A stretch of 41,511 bases of DNA from Candidatus Altimarinota bacterium (GTDB taxonomy: Bacteria > Patescibacteriota > Gracilibacteria > Absconditabacterales > Absconditicoccaceae), in the NCBI GenBank assembly GCA_027046965.1, contig JALTWR010000020.1, positions 1 to 41,511 of the forward strand. The letters are read 5' to 3'. Below are positions 1,143-29,763 of this stretch, in pieces. A program made the translations under genes and the position numbers. The notes beneath the pieces are model-generated. The model was not told where the DNA came from and did not search any database. It saw only the letters and a list, made by a program, of their open reading frames with translations. Within the stretch, counting starts at the first letter, position 1, and each line of letters opens with the position of its first letter.

Positions 1143-2567
1143 ATGAACCATTACAATTTTTGAAAGATTATTGCGACTATGTGACCTGAAACAGACAAGG
1201 AAACTCTATTGATCAAACTTGTTCAATTTATAGATATCTTTAGGATAAACCTTTCCCATGTCAAAGAAACAACTCTAGAAAGATATATAGAAATTATTCA
1301 AAAAGCAGATAGCAGCAAAACCATATTGCTAGATACAAAATGAGCTGAAATAAGAACCAAAAATAAAGAAAATGTAGTTATTCCCAAATGATATACTTTG
1401 ATATTGTCTTACGAAGATATAGAATTACCAAAAAACAAAAAGCAAATTTTGATAAAAGTAGACTATGATTTAACGCAAGTTCCAAAAGAAGCAACAGTAT
1501 TTTTGGGGGATAATCTAGAATTTGAAATCTATAAAAAACAAGATTGAACCGTATTAATTAAAATTGAAAGCGAAATAACTATTACCCCAGGGATGAAGGT
1601 CTCTTTCAAAGGATTTTATCCTGATTTGCCTATTCTTTCTCAAAGAGAAAAGAAACTATTGAGATTAGGAATAAACAGAAAAGCCAATATGGTAGCAATT
1701 TCTTTCGTAAAAGATGCAACCGATATAGCACAAGTAAGAGAATATATTAAATCCTTGACCTCCGAAAACATTAAAATAATCGCTAAAATAGAGACACAAG
1801 AAGCCATAAAAAATATAGATGAAATATTAGAAGCAAGCGATGGTATTATGATAGCAAGATGAGATCTAGGAGTAAATCTACATGTGACAGAACTTCCGAG
1901 AGTGCAGCTTAATTTGTTAAAAAAAGCAAATGAGGTAGGTAAGCCTGTAATAATTGCCGGCGAAGTATTGGCTTCTATGGTTCATCAGCCTTTCCCTACG
2001 AGGGCTGAAATAGACGGAATAGTATTTAACTTACTTCAATGAGCCGATGCTTTTGTATTATCCAATGAAACAGCAATCTGAAAATACCCACTAGAAGCTA
2101 TACAGTGGTTACGTGAGATAATTATATCCAATCAAGATATGGTAGATATAAACCTTGATATCAAGGATATAAAAGTAAAAAAGGACAAACAGATTTCAGA
2201 TTATATAGCAAATTTGGCAATTCAAACAGCAAAAAAAATAGGAGCAAAGGCTATTATTTGCCCCACAGAAACCTGATATACAGCTTCTAGACTTGCATCT
2301 TTCAAATCTAATATCCCGATAATAGCCTTCACAAAAAATGAACAAACTTTTAAATATCTAAATTTATTATGGGGAGTAAAAGGGGTTAGAATCTCAGGAG
2401 AGTTTTCTTTGGATATGATAAAAAGGATTGGTAAAGAAATGATAAGAATGATATTCAAAGGCACAATAAGATTAGATGACAAAATACTACTGATACATTC
2501 TACCCTAGCTCAGAATGTTCCAAATATGATAAATGGAATAGAAGTTTTTAAATTCAAAGATATGTAA
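1143..2567 (+). CDS. pyk: Pyruvate kinase, with a divergent active-site loop
   Basis: 474 aa, the normal length. Pyruvate kinase makes pyruvate and ATP from phosphoenolpyruvate and ADP, the last step of glycolysis. Visible in order are KIIATMGPE at the N terminus, FRINLSH (substrate Arg and the K+-site Asn and Ser), LLDTKGAEIRT (metal/K+ Asp and Thr), IIAKIET (catalytic Lys), MIARGDLGV (Mg2+ Asp), PFPTRAEIDG and ADAFVLSNETAIGKYPLEA, then a C-terminal allosteric-type domain. Oddity: the usual ATQM(L)ESM segment reads AGEVLASM, so the conserved Thr involved in proton transfer is Gly and the Gln is Glu. LSGET is LSNET. The enzyme could be slow or altered, but no other function is suggested. The ATG follows the ATPase gene by 26 bases; no Shine-Dalgarno is visible. 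Confidence 0.93.
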
Positions 2568-5968: not shown

Positions 5969-7978
5969 TTAATTATCAGTATAAACTCTAATAGGAAACT
6001 TATCATCGACAATATGTCCTTTAATAACGCTCAAACATTTAATTACATTTCTTTGCCAATTAATGGGATCTGAAGCATAAATATGATTATCCTCATTACC
6101 ATACCTTGAAAGTTGGTCTATTCTCCAATATTTACCCAAAAATGGATTGGTCAAAGCTCTAAAAATGGCCTTAGCTCCATCTTGAGGGGTATCAAAAGCA
6201 ATCCTATTGCCCCTATCATTATTGCCCACATTACCAACATTCCATTTAGAACTCAGATTGTGACCTAATCCAGATTCAGCAAATCAAATACAGATACCAA
6301 CATCTATATCCACATTTGTACCAGATTGTGCATTTTGCCACAAAGCAACATCTTTAAATTCATCTATAGCATATTTTTGCAAAAATTGCTCCCTCCTTTG
6401 AGCAACAGTTGTTCAAGTTATACCTTTAGATAATTTGGAGATATCAATCTTTCTTTGCATAATATCCTTTTGATATTTTACCTGATATTTCAATGGCAAT
6501 TTAGCAGGATCAGGATAAACAGATAAGTCCATAGTCTCAAGCGGGTCCATCAGGTTGCCATATTTCCATACCTCAAAATGCAAATGAGGTCAAGAAGATA
6601 GATTTCCAGCTCCTGGTGTTCATGGAAGCCCTCCAACTAATCCGATTAATTGCCCACGTTGTACAAAATCTCCCTCTTTAACCAAAATCTTTGATAAATG
6701 AAGGTATACCGTCACATATCAATGATTATGCAATATCATTAGCCATTTCAATCACTTACCATCATATACTTTGTATACAACCCCATCAGCTGGAGCATAT
6801 ATTTCCTCTCACTGAGAAGCACGAATATCTATAGCTCAATGATCAATTCATAATGCTTTCCTATACTCTTCATCTGCAAAGAATGAAGAAATACCTCTAA
6901 AATCAACAACCGGCCACGACATAAACTTATCACTATCAGGAACAGTATCGCTATCAATAAGACGAGAAATATCTATGTCTTCCCCAGATGCACTTAAGGA
7001 AACTTTCTGATTCGCTCTAGCTACCAATCATGAAAGCTGCTGTTCCAATAACTCTTTTTGAGAAGCTACAGCATGATATTGAAAGTCCACAAGGTTTTTT
7101 TCTTCCTTGAAAAATTTAAGTAAATCCACAAGGTATTTTTTTTGAGCTCTAAGCAAGTCCATTTCCATTTGGTACTGTTCAATCTCTTCTTTATATTTGC
7201 TCCTTAAGTCTTTTATCTTTAGCGATAATGTCTCGTATTGCTTTTTTTTGACACGTAAGATATCTACCAGCTCTTTAATTTGATATCACAAAGACTTAAC
7301 AATATTCTCTTTTACCAAAGAGTCTGCTATAGTATCTTGAGAGTTTACCAAAAGCTTAATATCATCTATATAAAAATTATCATCTATGGTATAAAACTCA
7401 TTTTTAATACGATATAATGCCTCTGTATAAAGCAAGAGCTGCTCTTTACTATCTTGAAGTTGAACAGAAAGCTGATCTATTTCTTTTTTAAGTTTAAAAT
7501 ATTTTCTAGTTAAAATGTCAATTCTCAGCATACGATTGTCCATTTCCTTTTGGAGACGCTTTACATTTAGTATTAATTGACTGACAACCTTCTGGGTTTG
7601 AGAATATTTTTGAGAGATTCTAAGTTTCCTATTTAGTAAGTCAGCAAAATCTTTATCTATTTCGTCCAATTCTTTAGAGATTTCAGCTATTTGAGCTTGA
7701 GCAACCTGAATAGACATAATAGCTCAATAGGAAGTATCGTTAAATACTTTGTTAATCAATGTTTGTTCCCTAGCTCTAAAATCTAAAATAGCCCTAGCCT
7801 TCCAATTGGGATTGCTCAATTGTGATTCATCCAATTCATCAAACAAGAATTTTTCCCCTGAAAGTTGGGCACCTGTAATTGAAGTTCCTCAACTTAAAGA
7901 AGAAATAGCACCCGTACTAGCCTGTACCACATTTGTTAACACAATTAATAGTATCAATCCTCCTACAAACTTTTTCAT
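5969..7978 (-). CDS. Secreted peptidoglycan hydrolase: coiled coil + M23 (LytM) + lysozyme-like domain
   Basis: 669 aa. A signal peptide (MKKFVGGLILLIVLTNVVQA) is followed by a long coiled coil (about residues 85-320, rich in Glu, Lys, Leu and Gln). Next is an M23 metallopeptidase core: GIDHGAIDIRA (zinc His and Asp), VTVYLHLSK and GPHLHFEVWKYG (HxH). The C-terminal 190 residues contain CIGFAESGLGHNLSSKWNVGN, which resembles a lysozyme/transglycosylase fold with a candidate catalytic Glu in AESGL; that domain call is weaker. The coiled coil is like that of EnvC/PcsB division hydrolases. The protein should cut cell-wall peptides and possibly glycans outside the membrane. Its ATG overlaps the stop of the upstream sortase gene (TAATG), so the two are translationally coupled. 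Confidence 0.88.
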
Positions 7979-8853
7979 TATTCTTTAAAAGATAAAGGTA
8001 AATTGTCAATTTTTTCAAATACCACCATAATTCTTTGAGCATCTGTTCCAATCGGATAACATCCCATCAGTGTTAAATACTCACCACTAAGATAAGAAGC
8101 ATAATAATCATTTACTCCTGAAGGCCAGACTATTTTCCTATCTATCATTTTGTATTGATAGTACTTACCTTTTCGCCATATTTCCAATATATCTCATTTT
8201 TTGAGTAATGGAATTTTAGCAAAAATATCTCAATAGGGGTTTTTCTTTCGCCAATAGTAGCTCGTATGACCAAATATCAGCGTGTTTCATTTTTCTCCAG
8301 GAGAAGCTGTATGAGGATACTTAACCACTCACTTATACAATTCTTTGTCAAAATCTCCTTTGGCAAGTTTTTCTGGGGTATAATACACAATATTTAATAT
8401 AGGGGCTTGAATACCAAGTTTGGGTATAGCAAGTCTATTATCTGGAGGCAAAAGATTAAACTCAAAGTCTATTTTTACTAGTTGACTCCTCAAAAAAGAA
8501 TCTATATCAGGAAGAGCTATATCATTTGTAGGAATTGTAATGGTATCTAGCTTATCCAGAGTCTTTTTTAACTGACTAGAATTAACTTTGGAGTTAGAAT
8601 TCAAAGCAGTAAAATGTTGAGAAATTTTCTCATAGTTTTCAGAACTGGTGTTTTCTCCATTTTGACTTGTTGTAAATATGGCAGCAAGAACCTTTTGATA
8701 AGTAGGAAAATTTATAGCTGAAAGTCCTAAAGTAAACACTATGCCATTAATTATCAAAAAAGTTAGTACCTCGTTGAATATTTTTATAAATCTTTTATTT
8801 TTTTTGGATTTTCTTTTTTTCTTTTTGGGCTTTATTTCCTCCAATGATGGCAT
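7978..8853 (-). CDS. Membrane-anchored sortase
   Basis: 291 aa. A lysine-rich cytoplasmic N terminus (KPKKKKRKSKKNKR) precedes one membrane helix (about residues 30-55) and a linker. The sortase beta-barrel begins at NRLAIPKLGIQAPI. Catalytic residues are visible: FGHTSYYW (His196), TLMGCYPIG (Cys265) and AQR (Arg274). Sortases cut LPxTG-like signals and attach proteins to the cell wall. The spacing (His-69-Cys-9-Arg) is nearly the same as in the sortase domain at the end of the 24450-27941 protein. The gene is coupled to the wall hydrolase downstream, suggesting anchoring and wall cutting are co-expressed. The ATG at 8853 is preceded in frame by a stop 24 bases upstream. Confidence 0.92.
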
Positions 8854-24449: not shown

Positions 24450-27400
24450 CTAATTATCAGTTAGCTTCTCATCTTCAAATAACACAAAAAGCAACTTCAT
24501 CCTCAGATAATCCAAAGTTGCCTTTACAGTCTTGTTCTTCATCAGATCTTTATCTGCCAATAGTTTATCTATCTTTTTAATTACATTTGAAATAGCTACT
24601 CTTCTTTCATCTGAAGATAATGATGCAAATTTTTGAGTTACGATATTATCTATCAAGACCCTGTATTTATATGGAACATCAAGCCCATAAAGCTCTCTCC
24701 TAAGCTCATATATTTTTAGACCTAGATCTTGCTCAGGAACTAATCTTGCTTTAACTATCCATCTATGAGCAATTCCTCAAATTGGAGTACAAGTAAGCAA
24801 AGTTAAATTAGGCTCTTGCGTTGGTTTCAGAACTTCAACATCATAAGGACTTGTCTCATAGGAACGTGTAACTGTGTACCTATATCTTTTATAATTATCT
24901 CATACCTTTTTATAAATTCGAACTTCTTCTCATGGGTCCAATTCTATTATTTTTTGAAAATGTGTCTTATATCTTCACGGATCGTTTTTCCAGTAACTGG
25001 AATGTCCGAATATCACCACATTGCCAGCCTTCCCAACATACTCATCTGTTGTCGGATAATACATAGCACCATTTCTCAAATATTTGTTTATATCTATTTG
25101 CTCTCCTGAAGTCATTTTTTCAAAGTCAGATGATCAAACAGGAACTTTTATTATCGGCATCACCAATCAATTACTTGGTATCACAATATAACTATCTTTT
25201 GTCTGATCTTTTTGAGGCAAAACCTGTTTCCGATATTCAAGATTATCTATATATGTTCATTTTAATCTAAACGTAGACTCATCAGGCAAATCTACCTCGA
25301 TTGTAGGCACCCTCCTTATATATGTTCTTTGAAGAATAGGCGTTCAAGTTTGAGGCAATATATTCGGCAAAACAAATCACAAATGTGGAGCTGATCGTTG
25401 ATTTTCTAGTTCATTAAGATGTTTTCTTTGATCTAATATTAACTTAAAGTCAGCTTCAAGTTCCTCTAAATACTGATCTAAAGTTTGTGTAGCCGCATTT
25501 TCATCCCCCTCATCATCAGGAGTATCGGCTTCTTCGGTAACAGATTCCTCTGAGGAAGCCGGAGCATCGCATTTCCCATCATACAAATCACCTGATTTAT
25601 CCTCACCTAGGCAATAGTCTATAGGCTTATAATACCCTCCATAAGCTCACTCAGGAGGTGTATACACAGCTATGGTAGATAAAACAAAGGGGCTAAAGTG
25701 GCTAGTTTCACAACTAACAAGGTTTGCTTGAACATCTACTTGACAATTATCCAAAGGAATCCAACGAGAAAGTGAATCATCATACCTAAAGATTTCCAAT
25801 TCATCTTCTTTTAGTCAATTTATTTCACTATCTGAATAATGAATCAATATATCAAGATTTTTATCAAATATATGTATTTTTTCATCCTCCTTACAATAAG
25901 CACTAAATTCATAGGTTCTAATTACCTCGGGTTTACTCGGAGTGCCTAGAGACCCAACAACAACATCCTTTTGCAACTGTTTTAATTGGAAAAAAGTTCA
26001 GGTCCCTCCGCAACTACCTGTTCAAATATCAAAATATCCTACAGGAACTTGTATCTGCACCATATCTTCTCAACTTCCCAAAATCAAACTTCAACTGCCC
26101 ATAGCTCAACTCCAGGTATAAACAACATCCGATATTTGATCATCCATAACTTGAGAGTTTCCTGGACATCATTTAGTAATAAAAGTATATGCTCAATCTC
26201 TAGCTTCATTAAGTGCTACATCCCTGGAAACAACTTCAAAAAAATATCTGGTACATGAGAGTAGTCACGTCAAAACTACTGTATGTCACGTGCTTCTATT
26301 ATCGATATTAAATTCTGGGGTTGATCTACCTAAATTAGGAGTTAATCAATAACTAATCTGAGAAGTAGCATCTTGAGTAGTAAGCCATCTAATAATAGCT
26401 CCTGTTAGTTGTGGCTCTATATTGATACTTCAAGATACTATAGCCACAGCAGGCATAACATTCACAATCCTATATATAGGATCAGCAGCATTTCAATTAG
26501 AATCAAATCAGCTATATCGAATAATATAACTGCCAGGGGTCTGATTATCAACAGTACCAGAAGAGACAACATTACAAGTTCAATCATGTTCATCATAACA
26601 ACTAGCTCCTGGATCTACAAAGTTTTGTCATTGGATAATATCTATAACCCCACTTCAATTCAAAGTCAAAATAGGCTTTTTATCTACCTCGACCTGAATT
26701 ATTCCAAAAGAACATTTAGAGGCACAATGACTGTCACATACCTGTATTCAAACCTCATATATCGCATCACCATTTGCATCAGTAGGGTTGTCACCGTCTT
26801 GACCTGTTAAAAAACTCAACAATCAGGTTGAACTAAGTTGAAACTTATCAACATCCGCCCCTCAAGACAAAGTATAGGTTAATTCATTGGGAATAGTTAA
26901 AGTTCAAGATGACGAAGAAAACACTAAAAATCAAACAACTTCTGTAGTATGCCATCTATCGGCTCAGGGACCATCCTCATCTATTACAGCAGGGAAGTAT
27001 CAAGTGGTTGCTATTCATCAAGAGTGAAACTGAGCAAATCCCCCATCTCATCAATCTTCTCAAAGTTGAGAGGTGAAAAAAGTCTGTGGGACCGAATTAA
27101 AGGGAGAGGTGTAATTAACGTTTGAACCAGAAGCACTACTTCATCAAACCACATCGGCACTCTGCCCAGCATCAATCTCGATACCATTGACAACATAATG
27201 CCCTGGCTCTACAGCTAAGTAATCAATTGTTTCTCATCAATGGACATTGGAAGCCCGACTTCTCTGTAAAAATACAGACATCTGTGATATTGTTGGTTCA
27301 CTTGCTCTATTGTTATCATTGCCATTAACGGAAGAAGCTACCCAAGAAGGATCATTATTACTGGTAACCATATGAATAACAGCAGGATTATTTACAAAAT

Positions 27401-27941
27401 TTGGAGTAAAGTATACTGGGGTTCCATTATCAATTTGATCAGTTCTTGAGTATACAAAATCAGTATATATACTTCCTGCTTGAATATGAATAGGCCCAAT
27501 ATCGTAAGCTCAGGACTCAACAACCGCATACGCTACATAAGTGGAAGCAGGTGGATTACTATCATAATTGTCTACTTTCAATGTAAAGCCTGTAGAATTT
27601 TTGTTCCAAGCTCTAGGTGTTCTTTGAATTTCTGCGTCATTTTTACCTCTTATAGTAGCGATCACTATAGGGTTACACATTTGAGAATGAGAAATAAGCT
27701 GAGGCGTATTTCAGGATAAATAGACATTTCAAAACTCCAATACTACATTATCATCGTCAATAGCTATATTATTACTTATAAAAGTTTCTCCTTTATTAAC
27801 GAAATAATAGTTGGTTGTAAACGTAGGAGGCTCATTTAAATGAGTAATTGGTGAGGTAGCATAAACCTGATTTAAAAAAATAGAATGAAAATTGGAAAAC
27901 AAAACCATCACGGCCATTAAGGCAATGACTCATCTCCTCAT
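24450..27941 (-). CDS. Secreted multidomain surface protein with internal LPQTG and a C-terminal sortase domain
   Basis: 1163 aa; I checked the frame codon by codon and found no TAA or TAG. A signal peptide (residues 1-28) precedes two H-lectin-like segments (about 75-270), a cadherin-like stretch (about 320-420), a DUF5011-type Ig domain (about 425-495) and a fibronectin-III-like domain (about 500-595). A ZU5-like segment ending ETSHFSPFVLS follows (to about 790), then an acidic Ser/Glu linker and coiled coil. The sorting motif LPQTG lies at residues 862-866 (25344-25358; its Gly is TGA). From about 925 a full sortase fold follows: FGHSSYWKN (His980), LLTCTPIGG (Cys1051) and AHRW (Arg1060), then a helical tail. 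No membrane helix follows the motif. It is probably secreted and acts on itself or on neighbouring proteins. Confidence 0.88.
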
Positions 27942-28122: not shown

Positions 28123-29763
28123 CTACATCATACCACCCATTCCTCACATATCAGGCATACCACCACCTGTGGACTCCTTTTTGTCCTCAGGCTTATCTGT
28201 AACTACTGCATCTGTTGTCAAAGTCATAGCAGCAGCACTAACAGCATTTTGCAATGCCACTCTAACTACCTTTGCGGGATCGATCACTCCCATTTTTAAC
28301 AAATCTCCATATTCTCCTGTTTTGGCGTTAAATCAATAATTAAAATCACTATTTTCTTTGACTTTTTCTACGACCAAATCACCTTTGTAACCTGCATTAT
28401 CAGCAATCTGTTTAGCTGGATACTCAATAGCTGCCTTTACTATTTCTAGTCCTATCTTTTCGTCTTCTTCATCAACTTTTACATTATCCAAAACATCTTG
28501 CAATTTTAACAAAGCAGTACCACCTCCTGGAACAATTCCTTCCTCTACTGCTGCCCTTGTTGCATTAAGAGCATCTTCAATTTTTGCTTTTTTGTTTTTT
28601 AGTTCCATTTCAGTTGCAGCACCAACTTTGATAACTGCAACACCTCCTACCAACCTCGCCAATCTTTCTTGCAGCTTTTCTCTATCATAATCAGAAGTTG
28701 TTTTTTCAAGTGCTGCTCTAATTTCTTCAGCCCTTTTTTCTATCTCACTTTCATCACCCTTACCTCATACTATTGTGGTTTTGTCCTTATCAGCTATTAC
28801 TTTATCAGCTTTACCTAACATATCTACTGTAGCATTTTCTAGTTTTAATCCTAGTTCTTCACTTATTACAGTTCCTCCTGTAACCACTGCTATATCCCTC
28901 AACATTTCCTTCTTCCTATCTCCAAATCCAGGTGCTTTAACCGCAAGAACATTTAATACTCCTCTAAGTTTATTCAATACCAAAGTTGCCAAAGCTTCTC
29001 ACTCAACATCATCTGCAATGATAACAATATCCTTTTTACCACTTGCGGCTATTTGCTCAAGAATAGGTAGAAGTTCTTTTATAGAGCTAATCTTTTTATC
29101 TGTAATTAAGATATATGGTTTCTCTACTACAGCTTCCATTCTACTTGGATCTGTGATGAAATATGGAGATATGTATCCTTGATCAAATTGCATACCTTTA
29201 ACTAGCTCTTTTTCTAGTCCTATAGATTTTCCTTCTTCAACTGTTACAACCCCATCTTTTCCAACTTCCTCCATAATTTCAGCTATGAGCTTACCTACCT
29301 CAGGATCTTGAGAAGAGATAGTAGCAACTTGTTCTATCTCTTCTTTAGTTTCAACTTTTTTAGATTTTTTGCTAAGTTCTTCGACTATGGCATCAACCGC
29401 CTTGTGCAAACCTCTTCATAACGCAAAAGGATTAACACCAGCTCTTACAAATTTCAATCCTTCCTTGGTAATGCTATCAACTAGTACTACAGTCGTTGTT
29501 GTTCCATCACCTGCAGCATCGTTAGTCTTGCTAGCAGCTTCTTTGACTAGCTCAGCACCTATATTTTCAAACTTATCTTCCAACTCAATCTCTTTGGCTA
29601 CAGTAACACCATCATTTGTAACTTGTGGTGCCCCAAAGGACCTTTCTAAAATAACATTTTTACCTTTGGGTCACATTGTAACCTTAACAGCATCAGCTAC
29701 TTTTTTAATTCCAGCGTATACCTCTCTCCTGGATTCATCTCAATATTTTATAATTTTTGGCAT
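28123..29763 (-). CDS. groL: 60 kDa chaperonin GroEL
   Basis: 546 aa. GroEL encloses unfolded proteins in an ATP-driven double ring. It has [38 protein letters not shown] (ATP site Asp and Thr residues), [46 protein letters not shown] and the flexible tail ending GGMPDMGGMGGMM. The tail contains a TGA glycine. By hand count only about 7 of 53 glycines are TGA, far fewer than in glyS. It forms an operon with groES upstream and ends at a strong terminator. Confidence 0.98.

Follow-up and report, generated by a model that had tools for sequence, protein, structure and literature searches.

Within the window, i.e., the whole analysed stretch of 41,511 nucleotides, the minus strand between positions 24450 and 27941 holds a single frame of 1163 codons that is open under genetic code 25 only; its length and its freedom from TAA and TAG are as a first-pass annotation of this DNA had claimed. 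The 47 in-frame TGA codons of this gene for a fused stalk and sortase are read as glycine, because the adjacent gene for GroEL (28123–29763) has TGA at conserved glycines in a full-length alignment to solved GroELs. The features of the encoded protein are collected in Table 1. The signal peptide proposed earlier is supported by inspection, and a signal-peptidase-like ORF is present in the genome (L198, 2893–3540). With regard to the stalk, the proposed lectin and Ig-like modules stand in part: an Ig-like domain is recognized, while a lectin module is without Pfam support. The N-terminal passenger region has a relative in another genome (L004 in G057; 38% over residues 5–420). The sequence LPQTG occupies residues 862–866, as previously noted, and is followed by 297 residues that feature a complete predicted triad of His980, Cys1051 and Arg1060 and, again in agreement with the annotation, no hydrophobic segment. 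The triad spacings of 71 and 9 residues had correctly been likened to those of a 291-aa sortase (P0002; 69 and 9). This protein and the fused protein are the only two sortases of the 855-kb genome, which is 95% complete, and both lie in the window. P0002 is membrane-anchored and is encoded at 7978–8853 on the minus strand, between genes for an M23 peptidase and a type II/IV secretion ATPase.

Table 1. Features of the fused gene and its product (window coordinates).
Feature	Residues	Position	Strand	Basis
Fused surface protein–sortase gene	1163 aa	24450..27941	-	Code 25 ORF and homologues
Signal peptide, likely SPase I site between VYA and TSP	1–29	27855..27941	-	Inspection; sole hydrophobic segment of the protein
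N-terminal passenger	30–330	26952..27854	-	Without Pfam match; relative in G057
Bacterial surface Ig-like domain	425–494	26460..26669	-	PF16403, 8e-12
FN3-type module (weak Pur_ac_phosph_N)	513–574	26220..26405	-	Under Pfam cut-off
Extended sorting signal PNILPQTG, predicted cut Thr865/Gly866	859–866	25344..25367	-	Conserved PxxL[PAL]x[TS]G
Linker from motif to sortase core	867–899	25245..25343	-	Poorly conserved; low AlphaFold confidence just past motif
Sortase catalytic domain	920–1068	24738..25184	-	PF04203, 5e-20; sortase fold match
C-terminal helical segment	1082–1163	24453..24698	-	Resembled in many fused and standalone relatives

The glycine of the motif is itself encoded by TGA (25344–25346), and translation with table 11 would stop right after LPQT. 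An artefact of the code was rejected for this residue: the motif does not depend on the assumption of code 25, because the corresponding codon is GGN in 13 of 20 aligned homologue rows.

The catalytic domain falls into the sortase superfamily, matching PF04203 with 72 bits (curated cut-off 26.6), containing the complete triad and showing the sortase fold in an AlphaFold model. None of the NCBIfam sortase class models reaches its cut-off for the fused enzyme, the models that matched being those for class E (39 bits, cut-off 160), C (36, 160), D (24, 165) and F (19, 166). The earlier statement that the protein is not covered by classes A–F therefore holds with respect to every NCBIfam class cut-off but not with respect to the catalytic domain, whose fold is that of an ordinary sortase. 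Class E sortases yield the best class score and close fold matches, albeit far under the cut-off.

Sortases and their substrates are normally separate proteins in established systems, where a hydrophobic tail keeps the substrate in the membrane. Signal peptide, Ig-like stalk, LPxTG and a sortase fold with His, Cys and Arg are shared between the fused protein and the pair of a canonical LPXTG protein and its sortase. The differences from canonical Gram-positive sorting are that everything resides in one chain, that this chain is tail-less and that a conserved proline is located three residues before the leucine. Two defining features of canonical LPXTG wall proteins are thereby absent: the motif is far from the C terminus, and the tail described for those proteins (PMC10924467), a hydrophobic segment and basic residues after the motif, is not present. 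The same geometry of passenger, LPxTG and sortase in a single chain characterizes the engineered STEPL fusions, which free their passenger by transpeptidation (PMC11561820); these are, however, a man-made tool, whereas the window protein occurs in nature, is secreted and has counterparts of the same layout in many species. No report of a natural stalk–LPxTG–sortase fusion was found in literature searches, which scarcely covered subscription journals.

Relatives were sought in 59 related genomes, in named public genomes and in 353 genomes of the class; many of the compared genomes are metagenome assemblies, and several ORFs end at contig edges. Sortases occur in most of the 59 related genomes, with a few matches also extending across LPQTG, and profile matches outside families f1, f14 and f19 came without the linker and motif part. 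The layout of stalk, motif and sortase was nevertheless recovered in 23 further ORFs from 12 other genomes of code-25 Absconditabacterales/Gracilibacteria, with the motif at the same place in 21 ORFs and degenerate in two more. Among them are an ORF of at least 2109 aa in G017 (LPRTGTP), one of 2670 aa with a signal peptide in G010 (LARTGTP), one in G069 (LPKTGPE) and several in G006 (LPVTGPD, LPATGPD and the two degenerate copies). Further fused ORFs stem from families f14 and f19 of other Gracilibacteria: 2411 aa (LPKTGTP), 2142 and 2353 aa (LPRTGTP), 1901 aa (LPQSGTP), 3445 aa (LPETGTP; its two near copies, LPQTGTP and LAQTGTP, are truncated at contig ends), 2086 and 2401 aa (LPKTGTP), 1643 aa (LPKTGSD), 974 and 534 aa (LLKTGTP), 518 aa (LPKTGAP), 488 aa (LPQTGTA) and two more with LPQTGVQ and LPQTGIP; in the last one of this series (L177, 358 aa) a frame break separates stalk and motif. 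The stalks vary among these relatives and comprise DUF11, DUF7507, SdrD_B and Big_9/cadherin modules. The degenerate motifs of G006 read HPGMGTP (L077, 4629–5996, minus strand) and HLDTGTP (L078, 1–9249, plus strand), and the sortases of both copies have a longer loop between Cys and Arg.

The first-pass annotation had proposed to look in other genomes for LPxTG ahead of a C-terminal sortase, and the homologues do keep the motif. Both a chance motif and an error of assembly, each named there as a result that would refute its reading, were rejected because the layout recurs in these 23 ORFs of 12 other genomes, motif and join alike being retained in independent assemblies. As judged from sequence comparison, the fused layout is thus a family of proteins and not a lone oddity.

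When 20 rows were anchored on the glycine, proline was found at position -7 and leucine at -4 in every row, proline at -3 in 17, threonine at -1 in 19 and serine in the remaining one; the anchoring expression itself fixes part of this conservation, while an earlier, looser search did not require the proline at -7. The consensus across the fused ORFs is PxxL(P/A/L)x(T/S)G, usually continued by TP. The flanking sequence is variable on both sides, the linker is divergent, and the distance from the glycine to the catalytic histidine ranges from 110 to 133 residues in the 20 aligned rows. By this comparative pattern the motif is a sorting signal and not a product of chance. That it is a functionless remnant of gene fusion is hardly credible: two relatives in G006 do have degenerate motifs, but elsewhere invariant motif positions stand beside a divergent linker and the motif strictly co-occurs with the fusion.

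This co-occurrence became apparent from 53 sortases of the family, in each of which the motif is present if the enzyme is fused to a secreted stalk and absent if it is not. A sortase was counted as "fused" when its core was preceded by 180 residues or more and no membrane segment lay within 150; this criterion was chosen post hoc. On a maximum-likelihood tree of these 53 sequences, motif and fusion each switch nine times; well-supported branches require only three of these switches to be independent, a number with which a sign test cannot reach significance. Fisher's test of motif vs. fusion by rows gives p of about 1e-10 but ignores the relatedness of the rows.

Unfused sortases of the same family are without the motif, and the signal can be found on neighbouring proteins instead. 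The clearest case is locus L125, where a secreted protein ends with PTKIPTTGVSISR followed by a stop (KIPTTGVSISR), and its gene lies 26 bases upstream of that for a standalone sortase with a decayed motif (IPQTR) and the linker LPAKIPQTRASIGDRV, as compared to LPKELPRTGTPISERV in its fused sisters. At L127, a secreted protein ending PNTLPRTGASN precedes a motif-less sortase. Including these two, 12 separate non-sortase ORFs of the same genome set end with P..[LI][PAQ].[TS]G, with tails of 1–31 residues past the signal and no membrane segment. When fused and standalone enzymes are aligned, LPxTG occupies the position of the signal peptide of the latter, as expected from fusion of a stalk gene with a sortase gene. 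The L125 sortase is nested among fused proteins on the tree, and these sequences imply that the opposite process, fission, must have occurred as well. The reading of the fused LPxTG as a substrate of the sortase behind it is partly supported by sequences and models: it gains weight because the motif is absent from the sortase whenever stalk and sortase are separate genes and because this signal also terminates secreted proteins that are encoded on their own.

Structure prediction was applied to residues 841–1163 of the window protein (AlphaFold, ten sequences). The model has a pLDDT of 80, with model residues 1–14 and 29–38 below 50; the motif stretch GFVLPNILPQTGTP lies between those low-confidence parts and exceeds 50. 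For the homologue L123, the block with LPKELPRTG has a mean pLDDT of 84, with a weaker linker after it. Both models match sortases (window model: Foldseek E 2e-9, VIA Z up to 16). For most of the class C sortases, which carry a lid, superposition starts shortly ahead of the motif (model residues 6–19), for those of Clostridium perfringens only at 49–71. Bacillus anthracis SrtA (2kw8) and Streptomyces coelicolor SrtE1 (5cuw) superpose from 18–25, most other class A and E structures only from 62–79. Because most class C lid sortases start to superpose just before it, the motif is suggested to pack over the catalytic groove at the site of the class C lid. Burial of the motif, raised earlier as an argument against self-cleavage, did not materialize, as the two models place it on the enzyme and not inside another domain. 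The fused protein may accordingly resemble the class C pilus sortases (2xwg, 3o0p, 3g66) in having an N-terminal stretch over the catalytic side, as far as model superposition can tell, but differs from them in that this stretch is a sorting signal after a long passenger.

Taken together, the protein is probably a self-sorting surface protein, the tethered sortase of which cuts its own Thr–Gly bond and transfers the stalk to an amine. This reading is further favoured because the window protein is the sole secreted signal-bearing protein found in the genome and because engineered STEPL fusions release their passenger by transpeptidation (PMC11561820). Two DNA pattern searches of the 95%-complete genome, with the candidates read, revealed no other secreted protein with LPxTG or PxxLPx[TS]G and likewise no separate LPxTG substrate for P0002. 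The other candidates for a sorting signal were rejected as FtsW-like, UDP-sugar dehydrogenase-like or lying in an unconvincing coding frame.

The signal peptide would direct secretion of the fused protein, after which the C-terminal sortase would bind the preceding PxxLPxTG, to which a tether of about 34 residues connects it. Cys1051 would attack the Thr865–Gly866 bond and hold the stalk up to residue 865 as a thioester, until it is taken over by an amine, which most likely belongs to peptidoglycan or a peptidoglycan precursor; sortase, linker and helical tail would stay behind after transfer. A protein that combines enzyme and substrate may do without the customary hydrophobic hold and basic tail. 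Catalysis, action in cis and the acceptor are deduced from the sortase family and the comparative pattern, and adjacent copies might process one another instead. The helical C-terminal segment, which was looked for in other secreted proteins of the same genome and not found there, is a candidate for retaining the protein before sorting. Points against self-sorting include the signal peptide, which looks cleavable on inspection, and L077 and L078, in which the motif is degenerate although the layout is preserved.

That the motif stretch of both models superposes on the region where class C sortases have their N-terminal lid would also be in line with a built-in lid, an uncut pseudo-substrate that plugs the active site of an enzyme serving other proteins. 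We consider this unlikely in view of standalone sortases of the family that lack such a motif, of separate secreted proteins that end in exactly the same signal, and of the pattern searches, which found no other signal-bearing protein in the genome. The anatomy would be identical if water resolved the cut, shedding the stalk or freeing an active sortase. Such self-release would fit the cleavable-looking signal peptide and the fact that no acceptor has been identified. Sortases, however, usually hand the acyl group to amines, and the genes for a penicillin-binding protein and M23 peptidases in the window indicate that peptidoglycan, a usual sortase acceptor, is made by this cell, which renders release by water quite unlikely. 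The closest lid-bearing structures being those of pilus class C sortases, fused copies might furthermore act in trans and build covalent, pilus-like stalk multimers; this appears very unlikely given the wide variation of the stalks among relatives and an unsystematic look that revealed no pilin-type acceptor lysine.

If self-sorting applies, a conserved, natural and tail-less fusion would represent another route to the sorting of surface proteins, in a layout otherwise found only as a laboratory construct, and would supply naturally evolved versions of a hand-built protein-engineering tool. The host lineages are tiny, mostly uncultured bacteria, some species of which live attached to other bacteria, a lifestyle for which covalent fixing of adhesins would matter. 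The tree puts the window enzyme among f14 sequences with moderate support, and because of this grouping it hints at lateral transfer of the stalk–motif–sortase cassette. It would be a long shot to propose that code-25 candidate-phyla bacteria possess in it an exchangeable C-terminal cassette for one-shot self-ligating proteins, joining an adhesin covalently to an acceptor outside their own wall, e.g., on the surface of a cell lived on, or to sister copies.

Separate genes for stalk and sortase also occur in larger arrangements. At L039 and L041, a protein with the tail-less signal is followed by a pair of genes for small membrane proteins and by two secreted sortases in tandem. The gene row recurs at L036, L081, L082 and L087; at all six loci it comprises a tail-less-LPxTG stalk protein, a membrane protein of 130 aa with four helices and a tandem pair of secreted sortases, most rows adding a membrane protein of ~330 aa with an outer domain. 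At L079, a secreted-looking ORF of 118 aa (2031–2387, plus strand) ends PSILPQTGI, one residue past the signal, and adjoins a 1500-aa stalk protein ending LPQTGADLAVSMCVAK. Long secreted ORFs stand in a row in G025 (L092, 784–11553, minus strand), share the ending PW.NVGVMLHD..DLDIDH and apparently form a tandem surface-protein family.
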